Part shown: in pieces, positions 10,458 through 20,715 of the stretch
Position numbering within the stretch: the stretch's first letter is position 1
Layout of the letters: the number at the start of each line of letters is the position of its first letter
Assembly: GCF_000832015.1 (NCBI RefSeq)
Contig: NZ_JXCJ01000001.1
Coordinates: forward strand, 194,111 to 227,390
Length of the DNA stretch: 33,280 nucleotides
From: Gilvimarinus agarilyticus
Lineage (GTDB): Bacteria > Pseudomonadota > Gammaproteobacteria > Pseudomonadales > Cellvibrionaceae
Direction: 5' to 3'
Notes under the pieces: generated by a model
The model's database searches: none
What the model saw: the letters and a program-made list of their open reading frames with translations, nothing else
Told to the model about the DNA's origin: nothing
Made by a program: the position numbers and the translations under genes

Positions 10458-11687
10458 CTAGGAACGCTCCAGCATAAAGGTGATAGGAAACACAAACTCA
10501 AAATGCTCGGCCGTCAAATCATCGGGAATCGCCGGGTAAGGAGCGGCTTTATCAATGGCGCGGCGCACAGCGTCGTCCAACTGCTTAAAACCCGACTCCA
10601 GCAGCGGCTGTACTTCCAGCACTTCACCGGCTCGGTCGATTACCACCGCCATACGGACACTGCCGGTTTGCTCTAACTTCATAGCGCGGCGAGGGTACTT
10701 AATCTCGGCGTGGGTTAGCGTAACCAGCTGGGCGGTGTAATCTTGCAGCATGCCGAGAGATTCGGCCGAAAAGTCTGGCAGGTCTTCCTCGGGCTCGGGC
10801 GCCGGGGCACTAGCCACCGGGGCGGGCGACGGCTCGCTGGCGACACTCGAACGGGCTTCGGCCAATGGCGACACCTGTGCTGTTGTCGACTGCTCTACAC
10901 TGGCCGGCAATTGCGCCTCGGCAGCCACCGGTGCCACGAGCGTTGGCATCTCCAGCTTAGGCTGAGGCACGAATACCGCCGCAACCACGGGCACCGCAGG
11001 CTCGCTGGCCACCGACGCGCTCGATTCAGCGGCTGACGACACCTGGGCGAGTGAAGCCACTGACGCCGATTCAGGCGAAGGGTTTTGCCACTGCTCGACC
11101 AAACTTAAACGCTCGGGAGACGGGCTAATTTGATCGAATCGCGCCACATCGGCGGCAGCGGAGCCTCCCAGCAGGGCGCTTTTAAATTCCCGGCTTGGCG
11201 GTACCGAACCGATCCAGGTAACCAATAACAGGTTAAAGAAACTCGCATCGTCAACACTGACTAATCGCTCACGATTTAAGTAGACATTGGCGCCGCTGCC
11301 ATCCGTGCGCTCGCTGATGGCAAGAATATCCCCGCGCCGCAAGCTGCCTTTAAACGCGTTAAAAAAGCTCGCTAACGATTCACCACTGGCGCGCTGGGCA
11401 GCGGCTGAGTTATTGATGGCAATACTTTGCAAAAACATTCGCGAAAGCTTGCCGGCGGTCATGGATTCCGCGACGAAGCGCAGCTCCATTTGCCGCGACC
11501 CGCGCAGCTCGACGGCCTGTTGAGCATTGCTTACCGGCTCGGGCAAATACAACCCCGCCAGAAACAGCTCTCGCTGCAACTCGATGTAAGGGGCAACACC
11601 ATCTGGGGCGGCCATTGCCCGTTGCACTGGCAATAACATCATGAATATCGCAACCATCGCACTACAGCAAAATACCGTGCGTTTCAT
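10458..11687 (-). CDS. Periplasmic chalcone-isomerase-like / TonB C-terminal fusion protein
   Basis: Exported protein of 409 residues. A signal peptide (MKRTVFCCSAMVAIFMMLLP to ~26, cleavage after RAMA) is followed by a domain at about 28-175 resembling the bacterial chalcone-isomerase-like family. Its pattern includes ELFLAGLYLPEP, MELRFVAESMTAGKLSR, FFNAFKG, RRGDILAIS and FNLLLVTWIGSVPPSREFK. A low-complexity Ala/Ser/Pro/Val linker spans about 200-305. Residues 315-409 form a TonB C-terminal-like domain (IKYPRRAMKLEQTGSVRMAV, LDDAVRRAIDKAAPYP). The cleavable signal replaces the membrane anchor of classical TonB, so energising an outer-membrane receptor through ExbBD is unlikely. A structural or binding role is more plausible. 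It is divergent from the DsbD-like gene. Confidence 0.82.
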   Translation of the reverse strand: MKRTVFCCSAMVAIFMMLLPVQRAMAAPDGVAPYIELQRELFLAGLYLPEPVSNAQQAVELRGSRQMELRFVAESMTAGKLSRMFLQSIAINNSAAAQRASGESLASFFNAFKGSLRRGDILAISERTDGSGANVYLNRERLVSVDDASFFNLLLVTWIGSVPPSREFKSALLGGSAAADVARFDQISPSPERLSLVEQWQNPSPESASVASLAQVSSAAESSASVASEPAVPVVAAVFVPQPKLEMPTLVAPVAAEAQLPASVEQSTTAQVSPLAEARSSVASEPSPAPVASAPAPEPEEDLPDFSAESLGMLQDYTAQLVTLTHAEIKYPRRAMKLEQTGSVRMAVVIDRAGEVLEVQPLLESGFKQLDDAVRRAIDKAAPYPAIPDDLTAEHFEFVFPITFMLERS

Positions 11688-11756: not shown

Positions 11757-11864
11757 GTAAAATATTGTTGTGATTTTTAGCGGTAGGGTATCCTGCGCGA
11801 TAGCTGTTATCGTTTTATGACAGCACAGGTTTTATAACTAAATTAATTTTATTTGAGGTGGCCA

Positions 11865-13886
11865 ATGAGACCCGTCGTGCTTCTGCAGCCTTTGCTTTTT
11901 ATAGGGCTATTGCTCGCTCTAACACTACCCGCGTTGGCGAGCACCACGGCGACGGGCGATCATGTAAAGGTGCGCCTAATCACCCCCAGCCAATTTGCCG
12001 CCGGGCAAACCACCACCGTAGGCTTTTACTTTGAGGTTGACCCGCAGTGGCACGTGTACTGGCAAAACGCCGGCGACTCGGGCGCTGCACCGCGCTTTGA
12101 CATAACCGCCACGGGCGCCACTAGCGGAGATATTCAGTGGCCCTACCCCGCGCGCCTACCCATCGAGCATTTAACCAACCTCGGCTACGAGGGCAACGTC
12201 GCCTATTTATTTGAGCTAACGCCGGAGCCGGAAAGCACCTCGATCGCGCTCGACATAAACCTCGAATGGTTGGTGTGCAAAGTCGACTGTATCCCCGGTT
12301 TTGGGCAAATGAGCAGCCAGTGGCCGGTGGCCGACACCACCCAGTGGAATAAAAGTGATAGTGATAAAGCGTTGCTCGAGACCTTTGCCGTACGGGTGCC
12401 ACAAGAGGCGGCCGGCAGCCCATGGCAGGCTACCGCACTCAGCGCAAACACTGATGGCAGCGCCACGCTCACGCTAAACGGCAGCGGGCCCGCCCCCGAG
12501 GTATTTCCCCTTAATGGCGACTGGTTGGGTGCGCAGGCTCCCAGCGCAATGCCCACCGACGACGGCTACCAATTTCGTTTTACGACGCAACCCGGTGTAA
12601 GTGCTCCCGCCAGCGCCGGGTTTGTCATCGCGCAACAAGAGCGCGCCTGGCGATTTGACGCCGTACCCCTCGGCGGTGATGACTCAACCGTGGCACCGAC
12701 AACCGCTACCACGGCACTGTGGCTACTGCTCGCGGCGGCCTTTGCCGGCGGTGTAATTCTCAATCTAATGCCCTGTGTGTTTCCAGTGCTTTCGATTAAA
12801 GTTTTTAGCCTGATGCAGCCGGGGGTGAGCCGCCGCGAGCGACTTCGCGAGGGCCTGCTATACAGCGCCGGCGTACTCACCACCTTTGCGCTACTGGGGG
12901 GGTTATTGCTGGCGCTGCGCGCCGGCGGCAGCGCTATTGGCTGGGGGTTTCAGCTGCAATCAGCACCGGTGGTGTTGGCGCTGGCGGTACTGTTTTGGTT
13001 AATGGCCCTGTCGTTCAGCGGGGTGTTTGAGTTTGGCCACAAGTTGATGAACCTGGCGGGCGGCGCTCGCGGCGGCGCCTTTGCCACCGGGGTATTGGCG
13101 GTGTTTGTCGCCGCCCCCTGCACCGGTCCCTTTATGGGGGCGGCCTTGGGTGCGGCCGCGGTATTGCCAGCCGTGTCAGCTATGGCAATTTTTATCGGCT
13201 TAGGCGCAGGCTTAGCCGCGCCTTTTTTACTGTTAAGTGCCTCCCCGGCGCTGCTTAGACGCCTTCCCAAACCCGGCCCCTGGATGGACACTCTGCGTCA
13301 GTTTTTTGCGTTTCCGTTGTACGCTACGGTGATCTGGCTGCTGTGGGTGTTGGGCAAACTGGTGGGCGACATCGGCTGGGTACTGGGTTGCTCGCTGCTG
13401 CTGGCGCTGGTGTTCGCCCTGTGGCTGGCGCACGGAGCGGGACGCCTACGTACCGCGCTCGCCGTGGTGATCGCTCTCAGCGCAATCACCGTAAGCGGCG
13501 CCACCTTAATGCGCGCCGAGGCACCTACCCTCCAAGCGAGCAGCACGCTGTGGCAAAGTTACGATAAAACCGCCATTGCCGAGGCCCGCGCCGCCGGCCG
13601 AGCCGTGTTTATCGACTACACCGCGGCCTGGTGCATTACCTGTCAGGTGAATAAAAAGCTGGTGTTAGACACCGATCACACCCGCGAGTTATTTAAGCGG
13701 CATAATGTACTGGCAATACGCGCCGATTGGACCCGTTTTGACCCGGAAATTACCGAGGCACTTGAGGCTCTGGGGCGCAACTCACTGCCGGTTTACGCCT
13801 GGTACCCGGCAGGCAGCACGCAAGCGATGCTCTTGCCGCAACTGCTGCAAGAGCGCATGATAACCGAACTGTTTGATAGCGAATAA
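11865..13886 (+). CDS. DsbD/ScsB-family thiol:disulfide interchange protein
   Basis: Inner-membrane reductase that carries electrons from cytoplasmic thioredoxin to periplasmic thiol proteins. The start at ATG 11865 follows GAGGTG; a TTG four codons earlier is less likely. The product is about 673 residues. A signal peptide precedes the N-terminal DsbD-alpha-like domain, with Cys138 and Cys142 in WLVCKVDCIPG. The transmembrane domain follows, with Cys304 (NLMPCVFPVLSIK) and Cys419 (AAPCTGPFMG). The C-terminal thioredoxin domain has the active site WCITC (Cys590 and Cys593). All three cysteine pairs are present, so it should be functional. It is cotranscribed with the secreted redoxin 21 nt downstream, its likely client. 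Confidence 0.93.
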   Translation: MRPVVLLQPLLFIGLLLALTLPALASTTATGDHVKVRLITPSQFAAGQTTTVGFYFEVDPQWHVYWQNAGDSGAAPRFDITATGATSGDIQWPYPARLPIEHLTNLGYEGNVAYLFELTPEPESTSIALDINLEWLVCKVDCIPGFGQMSSQWPVADTTQWNKSDSDKALLETFAVRVPQEAAGSPWQATALSANTDGSATLTLNGSGPAPEVFPLNGDWLGAQAPSAMPTDDGYQFRFTTQPGVSAPASAGFVIAQQERAWRFDAVPLGGDDSTVAPTTATTALWLLLAAAFAGGVILNLMPCVFPVLSIKVFSLMQPGVSRRERLREGLLYSAGVLTTFALLGGLLLALRAGGSAIGWGFQLQSAPVVLALAVLFWLMALSFSGVFEFGHKLMNLAGGARGGAFATGVLAVFVAAPCTGPFMGAALGAAAVLPAVSAMAIFIGLGAGLAAPFLLLSASPALLRRLPKPGPWMDTLRQFFAFPLYATVIWLLWVLGKLVGDIGWVLGCSLLLALVFALWLAHGAGRLRTALAVVIALSAITVSGATLMRAEAPTLQASSTLWQSYDKTAIAEARAAGRAVFIDYTAAWCITCQVNKKLVLDTDHTRELFKRHNVLAIRADWTRFDPEITEALEALGRNSLPVYAWYPAGSTQAMLLPQLLQERMITELFDSE

Positions 13887-13907
13887 CCCAACTATTGGAG
13901 ACCCGAC

Positions 13908-14522
13908 ATGAACGTCCGCAACCCGATCCGCCCGTTGTTATTTGCCGCCGCACTAAGTGTGCCCAGCTTAAGTTTTGCCGTTGCCACGCCCGGCGAATCC
14001 GCCCCCGCCTTCTCCGAGGTGGATGCCTCCGGCGAGATGCATGCACTCACTGATTATGAGGGTGAGTGGTTGGTGCTCGAGTGGTTTAACAAAGACTGCC
14101 CCTACGTGCGCAAGCACTACGGCAGCGGCAACATGCAAGCGCTGCAAAAAAAATACACTGACCAAGGCGTTAACTGGCTAACGGTGATTTCATCGGCGGA
14201 AGGCAAGCAAGGTTATCTGGGCCCGGTTGAAGCCAAAGCCGAAGCCGAAAGCCACAACCTAAACGCCAGCAGTGCCTTTGTACTCGACCCCGACGGCAAC
14301 ATGGGCCGCGACTATGGCGCTAAAACCACTCCACATATGTTTGTGATCAACCCCGAGGGCGATGTGGTTTACGCCGGCGCCATCGATGATAACGATTCAG
14401 CCAACCCCGCGGTGATACCCGACTCGCACAACTACTTAGCCGCCGCATTGGATTCCGCTATGGCCGGCGAGCCGGTGGCAGAACCTGCCACTCGCGCGTA
14501 TGGGTGCAGTGTTAAGTATTAA
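13908..14522 (+). CDS. Secreted thioredoxin-fold (redoxin/peroxiredoxin-like) protein
   Basis: Periplasmic protein of 204 residues with signal peptide MNVRNPIRPLLFAAALSVPS ending near SLSFA. The redoxin fold is seen in GESAPAFSEVDASG, WLVLEWFNKDCPYVRKHY, the VNWLTVIS strand, and KTTPHMFVINPEGDVVYAG with the cis-proline (TTPHMF). The active site has a single cysteine, Cys64 in NKDCPYV. A second cysteine, Cys200, lies in the C-terminal GCSVKY and may be the resolving partner. That layout fits a peroxiredoxin-like or thiol reductase protein recycled by DsbD, and the DsbD-like gene directly upstream supports this. GGAG precedes the ATG. The exact substrate is unknown. Confidence 0.88.
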   Translation: MNVRNPIRPLLFAAALSVPSLSFAVATPGESAPAFSEVDASGEMHALTDYEGEWLVLEWFNKDCPYVRKHYGSGNMQALQKKYTDQGVNWLTVISSAEGKQGYLGPVEAKAEAESHNLNASSAFVLDPDGNMGRDYGAKTTPHMFVINPEGDVVYAGAIDDNDSANPAVIPDSHNYLAAALDSAMAGEPVAEPATRAYGCSVKY

Positions 14523-15852: not shown

Positions 15853-18800
15853 ATGCCGAGTTTATTCAACCGCCCCCAAACACTATTACTGCTAAGCAGC
15901 TCACTGGTATTAATCGCCTGCAGCCCCGACAGCGCAAAACAAACAACAGCCAGCACGGACCTTAGCGGCCCGATGCCAGCGTTTCGCTCAGTGCTGGACG
16001 GTAAACCCCGGGTGCTCACGATTAGGTTAGGCGATGATCTCAGTTTTGCTTACGACACCGACGGCGGCGAGCTGTATAAGGTGTGGGATGGCCAAATAGA
16101 GTTCTCGGGCGCGGTGTACGACCAAAAACACGGGCCGCAACCTTCAACGCCGCCGCGTAATTATTTATTAAACGGCGCAAGCCGTTGGGCCGACGGCGTT
16201 GATTACCAAGGCTATCGGCTGGACGGCGCTCATGCTCAGCTGCAGTTTGGCAATGGGGCGATTGAGATTATCGAAACCCCCTGGCACGCGCCGGCCGCCG
16301 AGGGCATTATTCTTACCCGCACATTTACCGTGCGCGGGCTCGCTGCCGGGCAACACGCTACCCTTGAAGGCTTAAAGCTACCCGATACCTACGATGTTAC
16401 CGGCGACGGCCGCATTACCGGCAGTACACTACAACTTGGCAACGGCGAAACCACCCTAACTCTGTCTTACCCGCCACTGCCCAAACTCAAGCGGAGTGAA
16501 AAAACGGCGCCCGACGCTCAAGAGCCCCCAGGCCTCACCCTAATCAACAACAGCGACTGCGCCGCCTGCCATAACGCCGAGGTTAAAACCGTCGGGCCGT
16601 CTTATGTCAGTATTGCCCAGCGCTATGCGAATGAGGGCGGTTCTGCCACCGCGCTCGCCGATAAAATCATCAGCGGCGGAGCCGGTAACTGGGGGCAAGT
16701 TCCCATGACGCCCCACCCCGATTTAAGCGCACAAGATGCTGAGCAAATGGTAGATTACATCTTTTCCTTAACGCCCTCAGCCGTCGACACTTCCGATAAC
16801 GCGGGCCCAATGGCTCAAGCGGCGGTAGCCGTTAATTTAAAAGAACAAACCCCAGAGCTTAGTGAAAACACCCCCGGCGCGCTGTTTTATCAGCATTACT
16901 TTTCCGGCGACCAACCCAATGTGGATGTGCTGCGCACCACACCACCGGCGTTAGCCGCCCATAGCCGGCAAATCCATTTGCCCGACATTAACGCCTTTGA
17001 ACCCATTAAAGAGCGCTTTGCATATCAAGTAAAAACCAACTTACATCTTACCGAGCCACTCAACACCACTTTGCGCTTGGTAAGCGATGATGGCTCTTAC
17101 TTATATTTAAACGGCAAGCTGGCCATCAACCACTGGGGCTTTCACGGGCCAGACCCGATGGACACAGAGATCTCGCTCGAGCCCGGTATTCACCCGCTGG
17201 AGATTATTTATTTTCAGGGAACCTCGGGTGCCGCCTTATCGCTACAGTGGAAAAACCCAGTCTCGGGCGCGTTTGAATTAGTGCCCGAATCCATGTTGCT
17301 GGCCACGCCCAACGATGTACGCACGGTCGAGCCCGTGGTAACCGACCCGGATATTGTCAAAACCGTGCCTGGAGACACGCGCGAAGTGGCGGGCGTGCAC
17401 CCGTCGTTTGATTTGCATCAGGCGCGCCCGAAAGAATTTGAGCCCATGGTGGGCGGGCTGGATTTTTTACCCGACGGACGCTTGGTGGTCTCCACCTGGG
17501 ACCCAGAGGGTTCGGTGTACGTTGTCTCTAACTGGGATGCCGCGCCCGAGAAAATTAACGTTAAACGCATTGCCCGCGGCCTGGCCGAGCCCTTGGGGTT
17601 AAAAGTAGTGGACGGCGACATTTACGTACTGCAAAAGCAAGAGCTAACGCAGCTCGTCGACGTCAACGGCGATGACATTATCGACCAATACCGCCTTGTG
17701 ACTAACGACTGGTCGGTAACCGGTAACTTTCACGAGTTCGCCTTTGGCCTGGAGTATAAAGATGGCTATTTTTACGGCGCCTTAGCCACCGCCATTTTAC
17801 CCGGTGGTGCCAGCGCCGACCCACAAGCCCCTGACCGCGGTCACGCGTTTAAAGTGAATAAAGAGACCGGTGAGGTGACCATGGTGGCCTCGGGCCTACG
17901 CACCCCCAACGGTATCGGGTTTGGCATTGACGACCAACTCTTTATTGCCGATAACCAAGGCGACTGGGTGCCATCCAGTAAAATTATTGAGCTCACCGAC
18001 GGCGCCTGGTACGGCTCCCGCTCTGTTGACTATGACGGCACCGCCAAGCTCACAGAGACCCTGCCCGTGGTGTGGCTACCGCAAGACGAAATTGGCAATT
18101 CACCCAGCGAGCCCGCCCCGCTCGACATTGGCCCCTATAAAAACCAAATGATTCACGGCGAAGTGACGCACGGCGGCATTAAGCGTGTATTTGCCGAGCG
18201 CGTCAACGGCCGCTTGCAAGGCGCTGTGTTCCGTTTTATTCAAGGGCTGGAGGCAGGCGTTAACCGACTACAGTGGGCACCCGACGGCTCGCTGATTGTG
18301 GGTGGCGTGGGCAACCCCGGCAACTGGGCCCACGCCGGCGGCAAATGGTACGGTTTGCAGCGCTTAAATTATAACGGCAACACCACCTTTGAAATGCTCA
18401 GTGTCAGTGCGCGCAGCGATGGTTTTGAAATTACCTTTACCGAACCGGTTAAAGCCGGACTAAACCTAAGCGCCGATGACTTTGAAATTATCCAGTGGCG
18501 CTATGAGCCTACGGCCGAGTACGGCGGCCCGAAAATAGATAAAGACGCACTGGAGGTGCAAGCATTCTCGCTGTCAGAAGATCGCATCCGCGCGCAATTT
18601 AAGCTGAAGGGTTTAAAAGACAATCACCTGGTGTATTTTCGTATTAAACGCCCATTTAGCAGCGCCAGCGATCAAGAGCTGTGGACTACAGAGGCCTGGT
18701 ACACGTTAAATGCCATCCCGCAAAACAAACCGGTTGTTATCAATACCGACTATAGCGTTAACCACAACCAGCTCACCAAACAGGAGCAAGCCGATGGGTG

Positions 18801-19428
18801 GCAACTGTTATTTGACGGCAAAACCCTTAACGGTTTGCGCAACTATAACAGCGACCGTCTGGGAGAGCGCTGGATAGTCGACGAAGGCACACTGCACTTA
18901 ACCGGTCGCACCCCCGACGATAAAGGCTGGACAACTCCGGGGGGCGGCGATGTGGTTATTACACCAGAGCCTATTACCAACTTTGAGTTGCGTTTGCAGT
19001 GGAAGCTGGCCAAAGATGGCAACAGCGGTATACTCTACAACGTAAAAGAAAAGTCCGAGCTAGAGCACGCCTACGAGAGTGGCCCCGAATACCAGTTGCT
19101 GGATAACCCCGGCCACCCGGACGGTAAAATTGAAAAGCACCGCGCCGGCGACCTGTACGATTTGATTAAGTCCAAATTCGTTACGGTACTGCCCGCCGGG
19201 CAATGGAACCGCACCCGTCTGGTGGTAAACAACGGCAAAATCGAGCACTGGTTAAACGGCTACAAACTTGTCGAAACAGATATGGCCTCACCCCAGTGGC
19301 AGCAACTTATTAACAACAGTAAGTTTGCCGACTGGAGCGATTTTGCCAAAACTCCCGGCGGCCATATCCTATTGCAGGATCATGGTGATAAGGTCTGGTT
19401 TCGCAATATCAAATTGCGGCCTTTGTAA
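15853..19428 (+). CDS. Multidomain lipoprotein: cytochrome c, PA14, beta-propeller, 3-keto-disaccharide hydrolase
   Basis: Very large (1191 residues) exported protein. The N-terminus carries a lipobox (LVLIAC, Cys about 23), so it is anchored to a membrane outside the cytoplasm. In order: a beta-rich region of about 40-220 residues without a family I recognise; a class I cytochrome c domain with heme motif C236-AAC-H240 and axial Met285 (VPMTPHP); a PA14 carbohydrate-binding-type domain at about 342-475 (LVSDDGSYLYLNGK); a sorbosone-dehydrogenase-like beta-propeller at about 514-845 (GLDFLPDGRLVVSTWD, LRTPNGIGFG); an Ig-like segment; and a DUF1080/3-keto-disaccharide hydrolase domain at about 982-1191 (LLFDGKTLNGL, GNSGILYNV). 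It likely oxidises or cleaves glycosides with electrons leaving through heme. The ATG follows GGAG by 6 nt. Confidence 0.9.
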   Translation: MPSLFNRPQTLLLLSSSLVLIACSPDSAKQTTASTDLSGPMPAFRSVLDGKPRVLTIRLGDDLSFAYDTDGGELYKVWDGQIEFSGAVYDQKHGPQPSTPPRNYLLNGASRWADGVDYQGYRLDGAHAQLQFGNGAIEIIETPWHAPAAEGIILTRTFTVRGLAAGQHATLEGLKLPDTYDVTGDGRITGSTLQLGNGETTLTLSYPPLPKLKRSEKTAPDAQEPPGLTLINNSDCAACHNAEVKTVGPSYVSIAQRYANEGGSATALADKIISGGAGNWGQVPMTPHPDLSAQDAEQMVDYIFSLTPSAVDTSDNAGPMAQAAVAVNLKEQTPELSENTPGALFYQHYFSGDQPNVDVLRTTPPALAAHSRQIHLPDINAFEPIKERFAYQVKTNLHLTEPLNTTLRLVSDDGSYLYLNGKLAINHWGFHGPDPMDTEISLEPGIHPLEIIYFQGTSGAALSLQWKNPVSGAFELVPESMLLATPNDVRTVEPVVTDPDIVKTVPGDTREVAGVHPSFDLHQARPKEFEPMVGGLDFLPDGRLVVSTWDPEGSVYVVSNWDAAPEKINVKRIARGLAEPLGLKVVDGDIYVLQKQELTQLVDVNGDDIIDQYRLVTNDWSVTGNFHEFAFGLEYKDGYFYGALATAILPGGASADPQAPDRGHAFKVNKETGEVTMVASGLRTPNGIGFGIDDQLFIADNQGDWVPSSKIIELTDGAWYGSRSVDYDGTAKLTETLPVVWLPQDEIGNSPSEPAPLDIGPYKNQMIHGEVTHGGIKRVFAERVNGRLQGAVFRFIQGLEAGVNRLQWAPDGSLIVGGVGNPGNWAHAGGKWYGLQRLNYNGNTTFEMLSVSARSDGFEITFTEPVKAGLNLSADDFEIIQWRYEPTAEYGGPKIDKDALEVQAFSLSEDRIRAQFKLKGLKDNHLVYFRIKRPFSSASDQELWTTEAWYTLNAIPQNKPVVINTDYSVNHNQLTKQEQADGWQLLFDGKTLNGLRNYNSDRLGERWIVDEGTLHLTGRTPDDKGWTTPGGGDVVITPEPITNFELRLQWKLAKDGNSGILYNVKEKSELEHAYESGPEYQLLDNPGHPDGKIEKHRAGDLYDLIKSKFVTVLPAGQWNRTRLVVNNGKIEHWLNGYKLVETDMASPQWQQLINNSKFADWSDFAKTPGGHILLQDHGDKVWFRNIKLRPL

Positions 19429-19524: not shown

Positions 19525-20715
19525 ATGAAGCCCCTGACCTTACTAAAAGCCGCCCCTCTCGCTCTGGCATTTGCCGCCGTCCACAGCTTTGCCATCAGCG
19601 AAGACTTTATCGACCCCGAAGACGGCATGCTCGATGCCAGCCAATTTTTAAGCCAGCATATGCTCGGCTTTTTACCCGTACCGGTGATTATCACTGAACC
19701 CGCGACCGGTAACGGCTTAGGGGTAATGGGGGTATTTTTTCACGAGTCCGATGAACAAAAAAAAAGCGCCAAGACCACCGGCGTAATCCCCGAGAATATT
19801 AGTATCCTCGGCATGGCCGCCACCGAAAATGGCACCAAGTTTGGCGGCGCAGGCCACATAGGCTTTTGGCGGGGCGATACCATCCGCTACAAAGGCGGCA
19901 TCGCCTACCCGGACATTAACCTGGATTTTTACCGCGTCGCCAACGTCGATTTACAAAACCCCGTCGAGCTAAACATTAGCGGCCCCGCCATGCTGCAAAA
20001 ATTGACCTTTCGTCTGGGCAGCAGCAAATGGTTTGCCGGTGTTTATCAAACTTACCAGCATATGGAGACAACGCTTGCCAACGATATCGATATCGAGCTA
20101 TTGCCCAACGACGAGCTCAACGACAAAGTCGAAGCGTTTTTACAAAATAGGTTAGACATCAGCGAGGATACCTCGGGGCTAGGCTTAATTCTTGAATACG
20201 ACTCGCGCGACAACCCCATGAATCCCGAGGCGGGTTACAACTACCGCGCCCGGGCGGTACAGTTTGATGACGCTATTGGCAGCGATTTAAATTACACCCA
20301 GTACCAATTTACCGGCTTAAACTATTGGCGCCTGAGCGACAAAGTCAACGTAGCCCTGCGCCTGGATTACCAGAGCATAGAGCCCGCGGGCGGTGAAACT
20401 CTGCCACCCTACGCCCTGCCCGGTTTGCGTATGCGCGGTGTTCCCGCCGCCCGCTACCAAAATAACCAGGCCTTTATCAGCGAGATAGAAGCCACCTATA
20501 AACTCACCCCACGCTGGCACTTAAAGGGCTTTGGCGGCGCCGGCTTTGTGGCCGAAAACTGGAGTGAGCTTACCGGCGATGCCGACAGTGTCGAAAGCTA
20601 CGGCACCGGTTTCCGTTATCTTATTGCCCGGCGCTACGGCTTTACCATGGGTGTGGATGTCGCCTGGGGGCCAGAAGAATCAGCCTGGTATATTCAGGCC
20701 GGCTCCAGCTGGTAA
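19525..20715 (+). CDS. BamA/D15-type outer-membrane beta-barrel protein
   Basis: Exported protein of 396 residues with a signal peptide ending near HSFA. No POTRA repeats are visible; almost all of it is alternating amphipathic strands ending in a terminal aromatic (GSSW), as for a 16-strand barrel. Landmarks typical of the bacterial surface antigen (D15) barrel are LEYDSRDNPMNPEAGYNYR and the LRMRGVPAARYQNNQ strand, which corresponds to the VRGY/F loop of BamA-like proteins. The lack of POTRA domains argues against BAM or TAM assembly work. A secretion pore or a porin for the preceding lipoprotein's products is possible. It sits 96 nt after that gene on the same strand. Confidence 0.85.
   Translation: MKPLTLLKAAPLALAFAAVHSFAISEDFIDPEDGMLDASQFLSQHMLGFLPVPVIITEPATGNGLGVMGVFFHESDEQKKSAKTTGVIPENISILGMAATENGTKFGGAGHIGFWRGDTIRYKGGIAYPDINLDFYRVANVDLQNPVELNISGPAMLQKLTFRLGSSKWFAGVYQTYQHMETTLANDIDIELLPNDELNDKVEAFLQNRLDISEDTSGLGLILEYDSRDNPMNPEAGYNYRARAVQFDDAIGSDLNYTQYQFTGLNYWRLSDKVNVALRLDYQSIEPAGGETLPPYALPGLRMRGVPAARYQNNQAFISEIEATYKLTPRWHLKGFGGAGFVAENWSELTGDADSVESYGTGFRYLIARRYGFTMGVDVAWGPEESAWYIQAGSSW

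Follow-up and report, generated by a model that had tools for sequence, protein, structure and literature searches.

The stretch of DNA analysed here (the window; 33,280 nucleotides of the Gilvimarinus agarilyticus contig NZ_JXCJ01000001.1, positions 194,111 to 227,390) encodes a protein, P0001, in which a class I cytochrome c, a PA14 domain, a beta-propeller and a 3-keto-disaccharide hydrolase domain (PF06439/DUF1080; hereafter 3KH) are joined in a single chain. The computations show directly these domains and how well they are conserved, the class of fold to which the propeller belongs, and the repeated association of a propeller with an electron carrier and 3KH. On balance, we favor reading P0001 as an oxidise-and-cleave glycosidase in one chain, linked to respiration, held by a lipoprotein anchor and equipped with a propeller dehydrogenase of the pyrroloquinoline quinone (PQQ) type.

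Domain composition, propeller fold and distribution

The reading frame at 15853-19428 on the plus strand opens with ATG and encodes 1191 residues with no internal stop (Table 1). The initial annotation had placed a heme motif, a PA14 domain, a DUF1080 domain and a lipobox within this chain, and profile searches bore this out. Cytochrom_C (PF00034; residues 229-306, E 6e-7, 31.1 bits against a cut-off of 21.3), PA14 (PF07691; residues 378-474, E 1.6e-7, 31.7 bits against 24) and 3keto-disac_hyd (PF06439; residues 982-1189, E 1e-42, 146.7 bits against 26.8, covering positions 1-187 of the 187 in the profile) all exceed their Pfam cut-offs, the motifs were located, and a listing of architectures found the same arrangement in further genomes. 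The heme domain also matches cytochrome c552 among the PDB sequences (E 3.5e-16).

Relatives were collected by a pattern scan of genome contigs, which yielded 35 loci; as the patterns are short and exact, the scan undercounts. Alignment A1 comprises 33 rows, namely P0001 and 32 of these loci, leaving out L014, both copies of which lack PA14, L040, which is truncated by the end of its contig, and L042, which holds 3KH only. Mean identity to P0001 is 68.5% in the propeller, 54.1% in the cytochrome, 53.6% in 3KH, 53.5% in the beta-sandwich that follows the propeller (POST), 37.3% in PA14 and 33.9% at the N-terminus, the propeller being the best-conserved part of the protein. The heme residues C236, C239 and H240 of CAACH, together with M285 of the motif VPMTPHP, are kept in 31 of 33 rows, which are all 31 of the rows having a heme domain. 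PA14 is matched in every row (33/33), and POST comes after the propeller wherever the parts are fused and in the majority of split forms.

The fold of the propeller is that of the PQQ sugar dehydrogenases. In the AlphaFold model, computed with the 33 rows (mean predicted local distance difference test (pLDDT) 82; predicted template modelling score (pTM) 0.69), pLDDT averaged over tens of residues is mostly 70-94 in the propeller and drops in certain of its conserved loops. Foldseek places it nearest to 2ism (E 4.4e-11; template modelling score normalised by target 0.72), the first propeller matches being 2ism, soluble glucose dehydrogenase (GDH) and 3a9g, with E from 4e-11 to about 1e-9. Lower in the list, among xylosidases and sialidases, stands 6jt5 (E 1.9e-7), the Coprinopsis pyranose dehydrogenase of family AA12. 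Profile comparison by hhalign points the same way: against 19 glucose/sorbosone dehydrogenase (GSDH) proteins headed by Escherichia coli YliI, the propeller alignment gives Prob 82 and E 1.1e-5 (an E value for one comparison) over 259 columns, and as single sequences YliI reaches E 0.0088 versus E 0.23 for the propeller protein YncE. H627 is aligned to His147 of YliI and R683 to Arg214, each invariant on both sides and in 33/33 rows here; the aligned residues of YliI (His, Asn, Arg) presumably correspond to the base and the PQQ ligands of soluble GDH. Since the fold and this His/Arg match are retained, yet most invariant positions differ, the propeller has a PQQ-dehydrogenase fold with a partly rebuilt site.

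Family searches place the propeller less closely. Its matches to DUF7133, ScyE and TIGR02604 in Pfam and NCBIfam are weak and all below cut-off. Across A1, 23 of the 33 rows match TIGR02604 at E 0.01 or better, the lowest value being 1e-8. Searched against PDB sequences, the propeller profile brought up designed Pizza propellers and, over short stretches, lactonases and other proteins, with no PQQ enzyme; two propeller paralogues of the same genome likewise returned no PQQ enzyme.

All domains stand in one chain at 24 of the 35 loci (five Gilvimarinus, one Paraglaciecola and 18 Saprospirales). The notion of a single odd fusion was thus rejected, the fusion recurring in several lineages. Marinimicrobium carries two fusion copies in tandem (L014:4902-12909), Albibacterium divides the fusion into genes of 988 and 253 residues with 3KH as the next gene, and Maribacter, whose chain lacks 3KH, has a 3KH gene 3.4 kb upstream; L040 and L042 are the two of the 35 that fit none of the forms described here. 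When orders were surveyed with the propeller profile at E 1e-20, the window's order gave two matching genomes out of 145, one being the window's own and the other holding a different 3KH-cytochrome-propeller form, and the order of a Saprospiraceae carrier gave 15 out of 149, seven of them with the full fusion. A tree of the propeller part, rooted at its midpoint, unites the nine rows from Gammaproteobacteria (100/99) next to those from Bacteroidota and Armatimonadota, a pattern that would fit one transfer between phyla. We found no published description of a PF06439-cytochrome c-propeller fusion, judging by titles and abstract openings and with most subscription literature outside the search. 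Plasmid records label relatives of the individual parts piecemeal, as PQQ-dependent sugar dehydrogenase, c-type cytochrome, azurin-family protein, family 16 glycoside hydrolase or DUF1080.

Coupling of propeller, electron carrier and 3KH

These three parts also occur together, again and again, outside the fusion. On Runella and Rufibacter plasmids, a gene for 3KH-PA14 directly precedes a gene for a propeller with either cytochrome c or cupredoxin, and in other bacteria two adjacent genes encode 3KH-PA14-DUF6797-like and propeller-cytochrome c or propeller-cupredoxin proteins. At two Catenovulum loci, the propeller gene is immediately preceded by one for a cytochrome c. We fetched, with their flanks, 14 further propeller loci, which are all those listed in the order survey beside nine long forms. 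The electron carrier is in the chain at 10 of them (seven cupredoxin, three cytochrome c), in the next gene at one, and was not found at three. A 3KH gene adjoins the propeller at six of the 14 and a PA14 gene at three more; in these the profile misses the N-terminus, one having a sub-cut-off PF06439 match (E 2e-4). The profiles used (PROPs, CYT2, CUPR, PA14s and KH2) were partly built from the matched loci L091-L094, L101, L109, L111 and L112, and KH2 additionally from L048, L102 and L106, so that matches to source loci are not independent, whereas the Pfam scans are. Because the cytochrome profiles missed a cytochrome at L048 that Pfam found, the three loci without a carrier (L119, L126, L127) may be misses.

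The exchange of cytochrome c for cupredoxin at the same place is expected of a dehydrogenase with a one-electron acceptor. It also bears on whether the propeller is a catalyst at all. The propeller of P0001 reaches no Pfam enzyme family and might be a non-catalytic binding or scaffold module, with the cytochrome engaged in unrelated electron transfer; however, 84 of its 341 columns are invariant over three phyla in A1, and the two kinds of carrier interchange at the propeller end in relatives, so that we regard this alternative as highly improbable.

A similar association is seen within the window's own genome, which has seven PF06439 matches including P0001 and five DUF7133 matches besides the P0001 propeller, four of them over cut-off. 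Three pairs occur here: a tandem of a 331-residue 3KH protein and a 1098-residue 3KH-cytochrome c-propeller protein; a row of propeller-HEAT (with a weak cytochrome), Exop_C, 3KH and propeller-cytochrome genes; and a 3KH gene converging on a propeller-HEAT-cytochrome gene. Counting the tandem once, three of the five other 3KH loci lie less than 5 kb from a propeller, which was equalled by 3 of 200,000 random placements in a test devised post hoc. One propeller and two 3KH loci were found without such a partner, one of the latter lying 2 kb from ThuA and the other being fused to a pectinesterase. Taken together, the two-gene versions, the cupredoxin exchange, the three same-genome pairings and the conserved PQQ-type-fold propeller lend comparative support to the oxidise-and-cleave coupling that the initial annotation proposed, and in this measure it is partly upheld.

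Other arrangements of 3KH were also observed. In the window's genome, 3KH and pectinesterase form one 850-residue protein (L052:3875-6427, minus strand); a Fimbriimonadaceae carrier has PA14, propeller, ThuA and 3KH in one chain of 1102 residues (L106:3037-6342, minus strand); and proteins of about 1142 residues at L102:3670-7095 and L103:3609-7040 (both minus strand) combine HEAT repeats with two 3KH domains.

The 3KH domain of P0001 itself resembles proteins of solved structure. Its PDB sequence match is 3hbk (E 3.5e-43; by Foldseek E 1.1e-19), Foldseek also finds the 3-keto-glycoside eliminase/hydratase 8rr2 (E 2.5e-18), and the nearest solved structures, at 34-35% identity, include 8rr2 and the 3-keto-2-hydroxy-glucal hydratases 8tda and 8v31. 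D1084, H1088, Y1102, W1118, Q1175, D1176 and H1177 are kept in 27/27 rows with 3KH, and the motif residues common to the solved eliminase/hydratases are intact in P0001, as judged from the alignments. In PMC9007349, DUF1080 proteins are tied to lactose use with the LacABC 3-dehydrogenase, and BT2157 is named a 3-ketotrehalose hydrolase; PMC10628242 describes Mn enzymes that eliminate 3-keto-glycosides. PMC5673643 regards DUF1080 proteins as xanthan glycosidases and reports an annotation overlap with CBM66.

This overlap lends itself to a second interpretation, in which P0001 is a decorated aldose dehydrogenase whose propeller attacks C1 of a sugar that is free or at a reducing end, in the manner of YliI-type enzymes, the cytochrome serving as acceptor and 3KH as a carbohydrate-binding module. 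The nearest propeller folds are indeed aldose and glucose dehydrogenases, and four relatives keep the dehydrogenase with no 3KH in the fetched flanks. We nevertheless consider it unlikely, given the resemblance of 3KH to solved eliminase/hydratases and hydratases and the retention of its seven motif residues; moreover, the 3KH near ThuA and the 3KH fused to ThuA point to 3-keto-sugar metabolism, in which ThuA takes part.

Proposed mechanism and cofactor, and points against the reading

We infer PQQ as the cofactor, C3 as the site of oxidation, the electron path, the substrate and the occurrence of both reactions in one chain. By homology, a glycoside would be bound in the propeller and hydride removed from the sugar by a quinone-type cofactor, the oxidised position being a sugar hydroxyl of the glycoside, most likely at C3. 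Electrons would pass to the heme of the fused cytochrome c and then to the respiratory chain, as the domain fusion and the carrier exchange suggest. The resulting 3-keto-glycoside would be handed to 3KH, in which, again by homology, the linkage would be broken by elimination and/or hydration. PA14 and the N-terminal DUF6797-like domain may hold the substrate or shape the chain; the profile map shows both Marinimicrobium copies, which stand outside A1, to be devoid of PA14, and this weighs against the idea that PA14 binds sugar.

It is tempting to take this further. P0001 may, as a tentative possibility, be a membrane-anchored respiratory glycosidase that cuts by oxidation and elimination instead of hydrolysis, delivers two electrons per cut into respiration by way of its built-in cytochrome (a copper protein taking that place in relatives) and depends on PQQ from other bacteria. 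Were this so, glycan breakdown would itself drive respiration, with a cofactor dependent on neighbours.

Several observations, however, speak against an oxidise-and-cleave enzyme using PQQ. PF07995 (glucose/sorbosone dehydrogenase) matches none of the 33 rows, P0001 included, at E 0.01, so that the propeller is not filed as a member; the sorbosone-dehydrogenase-like propeller of the initial annotation therefore stands as a fold, on the evidence of Foldseek and profile comparison, and falls as a Pfam assignment. The GSDH set has 28 invariant positions; the alignment covers 25 of them, with just seven identities (five Gly, the His and the Arg). Arg341 and Arg343 of YliI lie opposite Gly802 and Asn804, the invariant Arg805 being one position off, Asn215 of YliI lies opposite Thr684, and the Asp-Glu pair of the GSDH proteins is lost. 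Model confidence in the heme domain is low (pLDDT 40-75 per ten residues), and the two Armatimonadota loci of the 35, which are the two A1 rows without a cytochrome domain, hold 3KH in a fusion lacking its carrier. Conversely, 3KH is absent from the chain at six of the 35 loci, all Bacteroidota, four of which have no 3KH gene in the fetched flanks. Both Catenovulum loci are without 3KH by profile, and neither a 3KH nor a PA14 gene was found adjoining the propeller at five of the 14 split loci. Ten Pedobacter DUF1080 genes are reported without a lactose phenotype in PMC9007349. Finally, pqqC (TIGR02111) was found in none of 24 carrier genomes, some of them unfinished metagenome-assembled genomes, which comprise the window's genome and 23 others from the 35 loci.

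The last point concerns the supply of the cofactor. Run over 185 genomes of the class, the same pqqC search was positive in 31, with 27 of these exceeding the cut-off, and production of PQQ by the host is thus not supported. The window's genome nevertheless has six PF07995 matches, five over cut-off, and, in a search of this genome alone, a TonB receptor with 36% identity to E. coli PqqU (E 7e-104; next best 8e-13). The receptor gene lies at G000:C1:2986009-2987949 (L129:5007-7073), with an HrpB-type helicase and hydantoinase B as neighbours. E. coli K-12 offers a precedent: pqqU and yliI are both named in its record, and it is not known to make PQQ. Hence, as the pqqC search of the window's genome was negative, its PqqU-like importer and PF07995 proteins suggest scavenging, and the simple reading would be that PQQ is scavenged rather than synthesised. 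The same evidence bears on the alternative that the propeller is redox-active with another cofactor or a metal. The pqqC result would suit such a protein, as would the loss of most residues that are invariant in the GSDH set, including both C-terminal arginines; the signs of scavenging argue for PQQ, and we hold this alternative to be quite unlikely.

Anchor, neighbouring genes and known systems

Table 1. Coordinates of P0001 features and of the adjoining gene in the window
Feature	Position	Strand	Residues	Basis
Signal peptide and lipobox LIAC, Cys23	15853..15921	+	1-23	sequence and motif position
N-terminal beta-sandwich, DUF6797-like	15940..16518	+	30-222	profile comparison
Class I cytochrome c, CAACH 236-240, Met285	16534..16770	+	228-306	PF00034
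PA14	16873..17307	+	341-485	PF07691
Beta-propeller, divergent relative of PQQ sugar dehydrogenases	17365..18387	+	505-845	Foldseek, hhalign
POST, conserved beta-sandwich C-terminal to propeller	18388..18720	+	846-956	position in fused and most split forms
3KH (PF06439/DUF1080)	18760..19425	+	970-1191	PF06439, Foldseek
Omp85-like barrel gene, neighbour, probably outside the unit	19525..20715	+		PF01103 E 1.4e-8

Sorting of lipoproteins follows the +2 rule, and in P0001 the lipobox cysteine is followed by Ser-Pro, with no Asp at +2, as in an outer-membrane lipoprotein (as read from the sequence). A lipobox pattern occurs within the first 70 residues in 22 of 33 rows, at least two of these (L036, L038) being doubtful, and several of the rows that fail the pattern have near-lipoboxes such as LNAC. 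P0001 is therefore likely to be an outer-membrane lipoprotein. The cell-surface position suggested by the initial annotation is unsupported; in our judgement the protein is no less likely to point into the periplasm.

The N-terminal part, described initially as unassigned, is no longer wholly so. By hhalign, its alignment (A4) matches the C-terminal domain of the split partner genes (A7, nine aligned split-form 3KH-PA14 gene products, each with this extra domain) with Prob 95 and E 2.9e-8 over 131 columns, and the N-terminal domain thus appears to resemble DUF6797. Of the nine A7 sequences, five give matches to DUF6797, the strongest at E 0.0035, and those whose scores are shown fall below cut-off; the Pfam scan gave no direct match of DUF6797 (PF20601) to P0001, so the link runs through A7 only. 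The domain is modelled at pLDDT 87; compared with the PDB it reaches E 9e-3 at best, so that no fold comes within E 0.001 and none is assigned. With this match, each named module of P0001 has a counterpart in the two-gene systems, differently ordered.

As for the genomic neighbours, the barrel gene noted initially beside the fusion does exist and encodes an Omp85 domain, but a functional link is unsupported. It lies beside the fusion at four of five Gilvimarinus loci (L008, L010, L011 and L013; not L009) and at no other fetched locus; being so confined, it is no conserved part of the unit and was rejected as a conserved partner. Upstream, at 11853-14522 on the plus strand, a DsbD-like reductase and a ResA/AhpC-type thioredoxin are encoded, with counterparts in L009, L010 and L013; these genes might serve cytochrome maturation. 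On the minus strand, 10458-11687 encodes a 409-residue fusion of a chalcone isomerase-like domain (PF16036) with a TonB C-terminal domain, and the 610-residue product of 8547-10379 matches no Pfam family, giving only weak coiled-coil-type NCBIfam matches.

If our reading is true, P0001 would be a self-contained glycan-cleaving tool with a built-in electron carrier, it would point to its propeller family as the oxidase so far missing for many DUF1080 proteins, and polysaccharide use would be tied to the exchange of PQQ between bacteria. Testable assignments would also follow for domains of unknown function, namely the DUF6797-like and DUF7133-like domains and POST.

In the 3-keto route as known, oxidation and cleavage are carried out by different proteins, and LacABC is not known to contain a propeller or PA14. 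The Caulobacter system of LacABC and a separate DUF1080 protein (PMC9007349) likewise joins sugar oxidation to a proposed PF06439 cleavage outside the cytoplasm; it differs in consisting of separate proteins with the membrane-bound LacABC complex as oxidase, whereas P0001 is one chain. The BT2157-type eliminase/hydratases and glucal hydratases (8rr2, 9fbe, 8tda, 8v31) share the fold of 3KH at 34-35% identity, but their PDB chains hold this domain in 275-281 residues, compared with the 1191 of P0001. The dehydrogenases that partner BT2157-type enzymes are, as far as is known, other proteins. With the PQQ sugar dehydrogenases (2ism, 3a9g, soluble GDH, YliI) and 6jt5, P0001 has in common the propeller fold, the aligned His and one Arg; it departs from them at most invariant positions, has invariant residues of its own and is fused to cytochrome c, PA14 and 3KH. 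The PVC-type heme-binding CxxCH (TIGR02604)/DUF7133 proteins also combine propeller and cytochrome c and twice lie beside 3KH in the window's genome; their domain order is different, and P0001 scores 22.2 bits against the TIGR02604 cut-off of 122.2. What is new here is a putative 3-keto route in which a PQQ-type propeller and an electron carrier are fused to the cleaving enzyme, an arrangement that is both real and recurrent.

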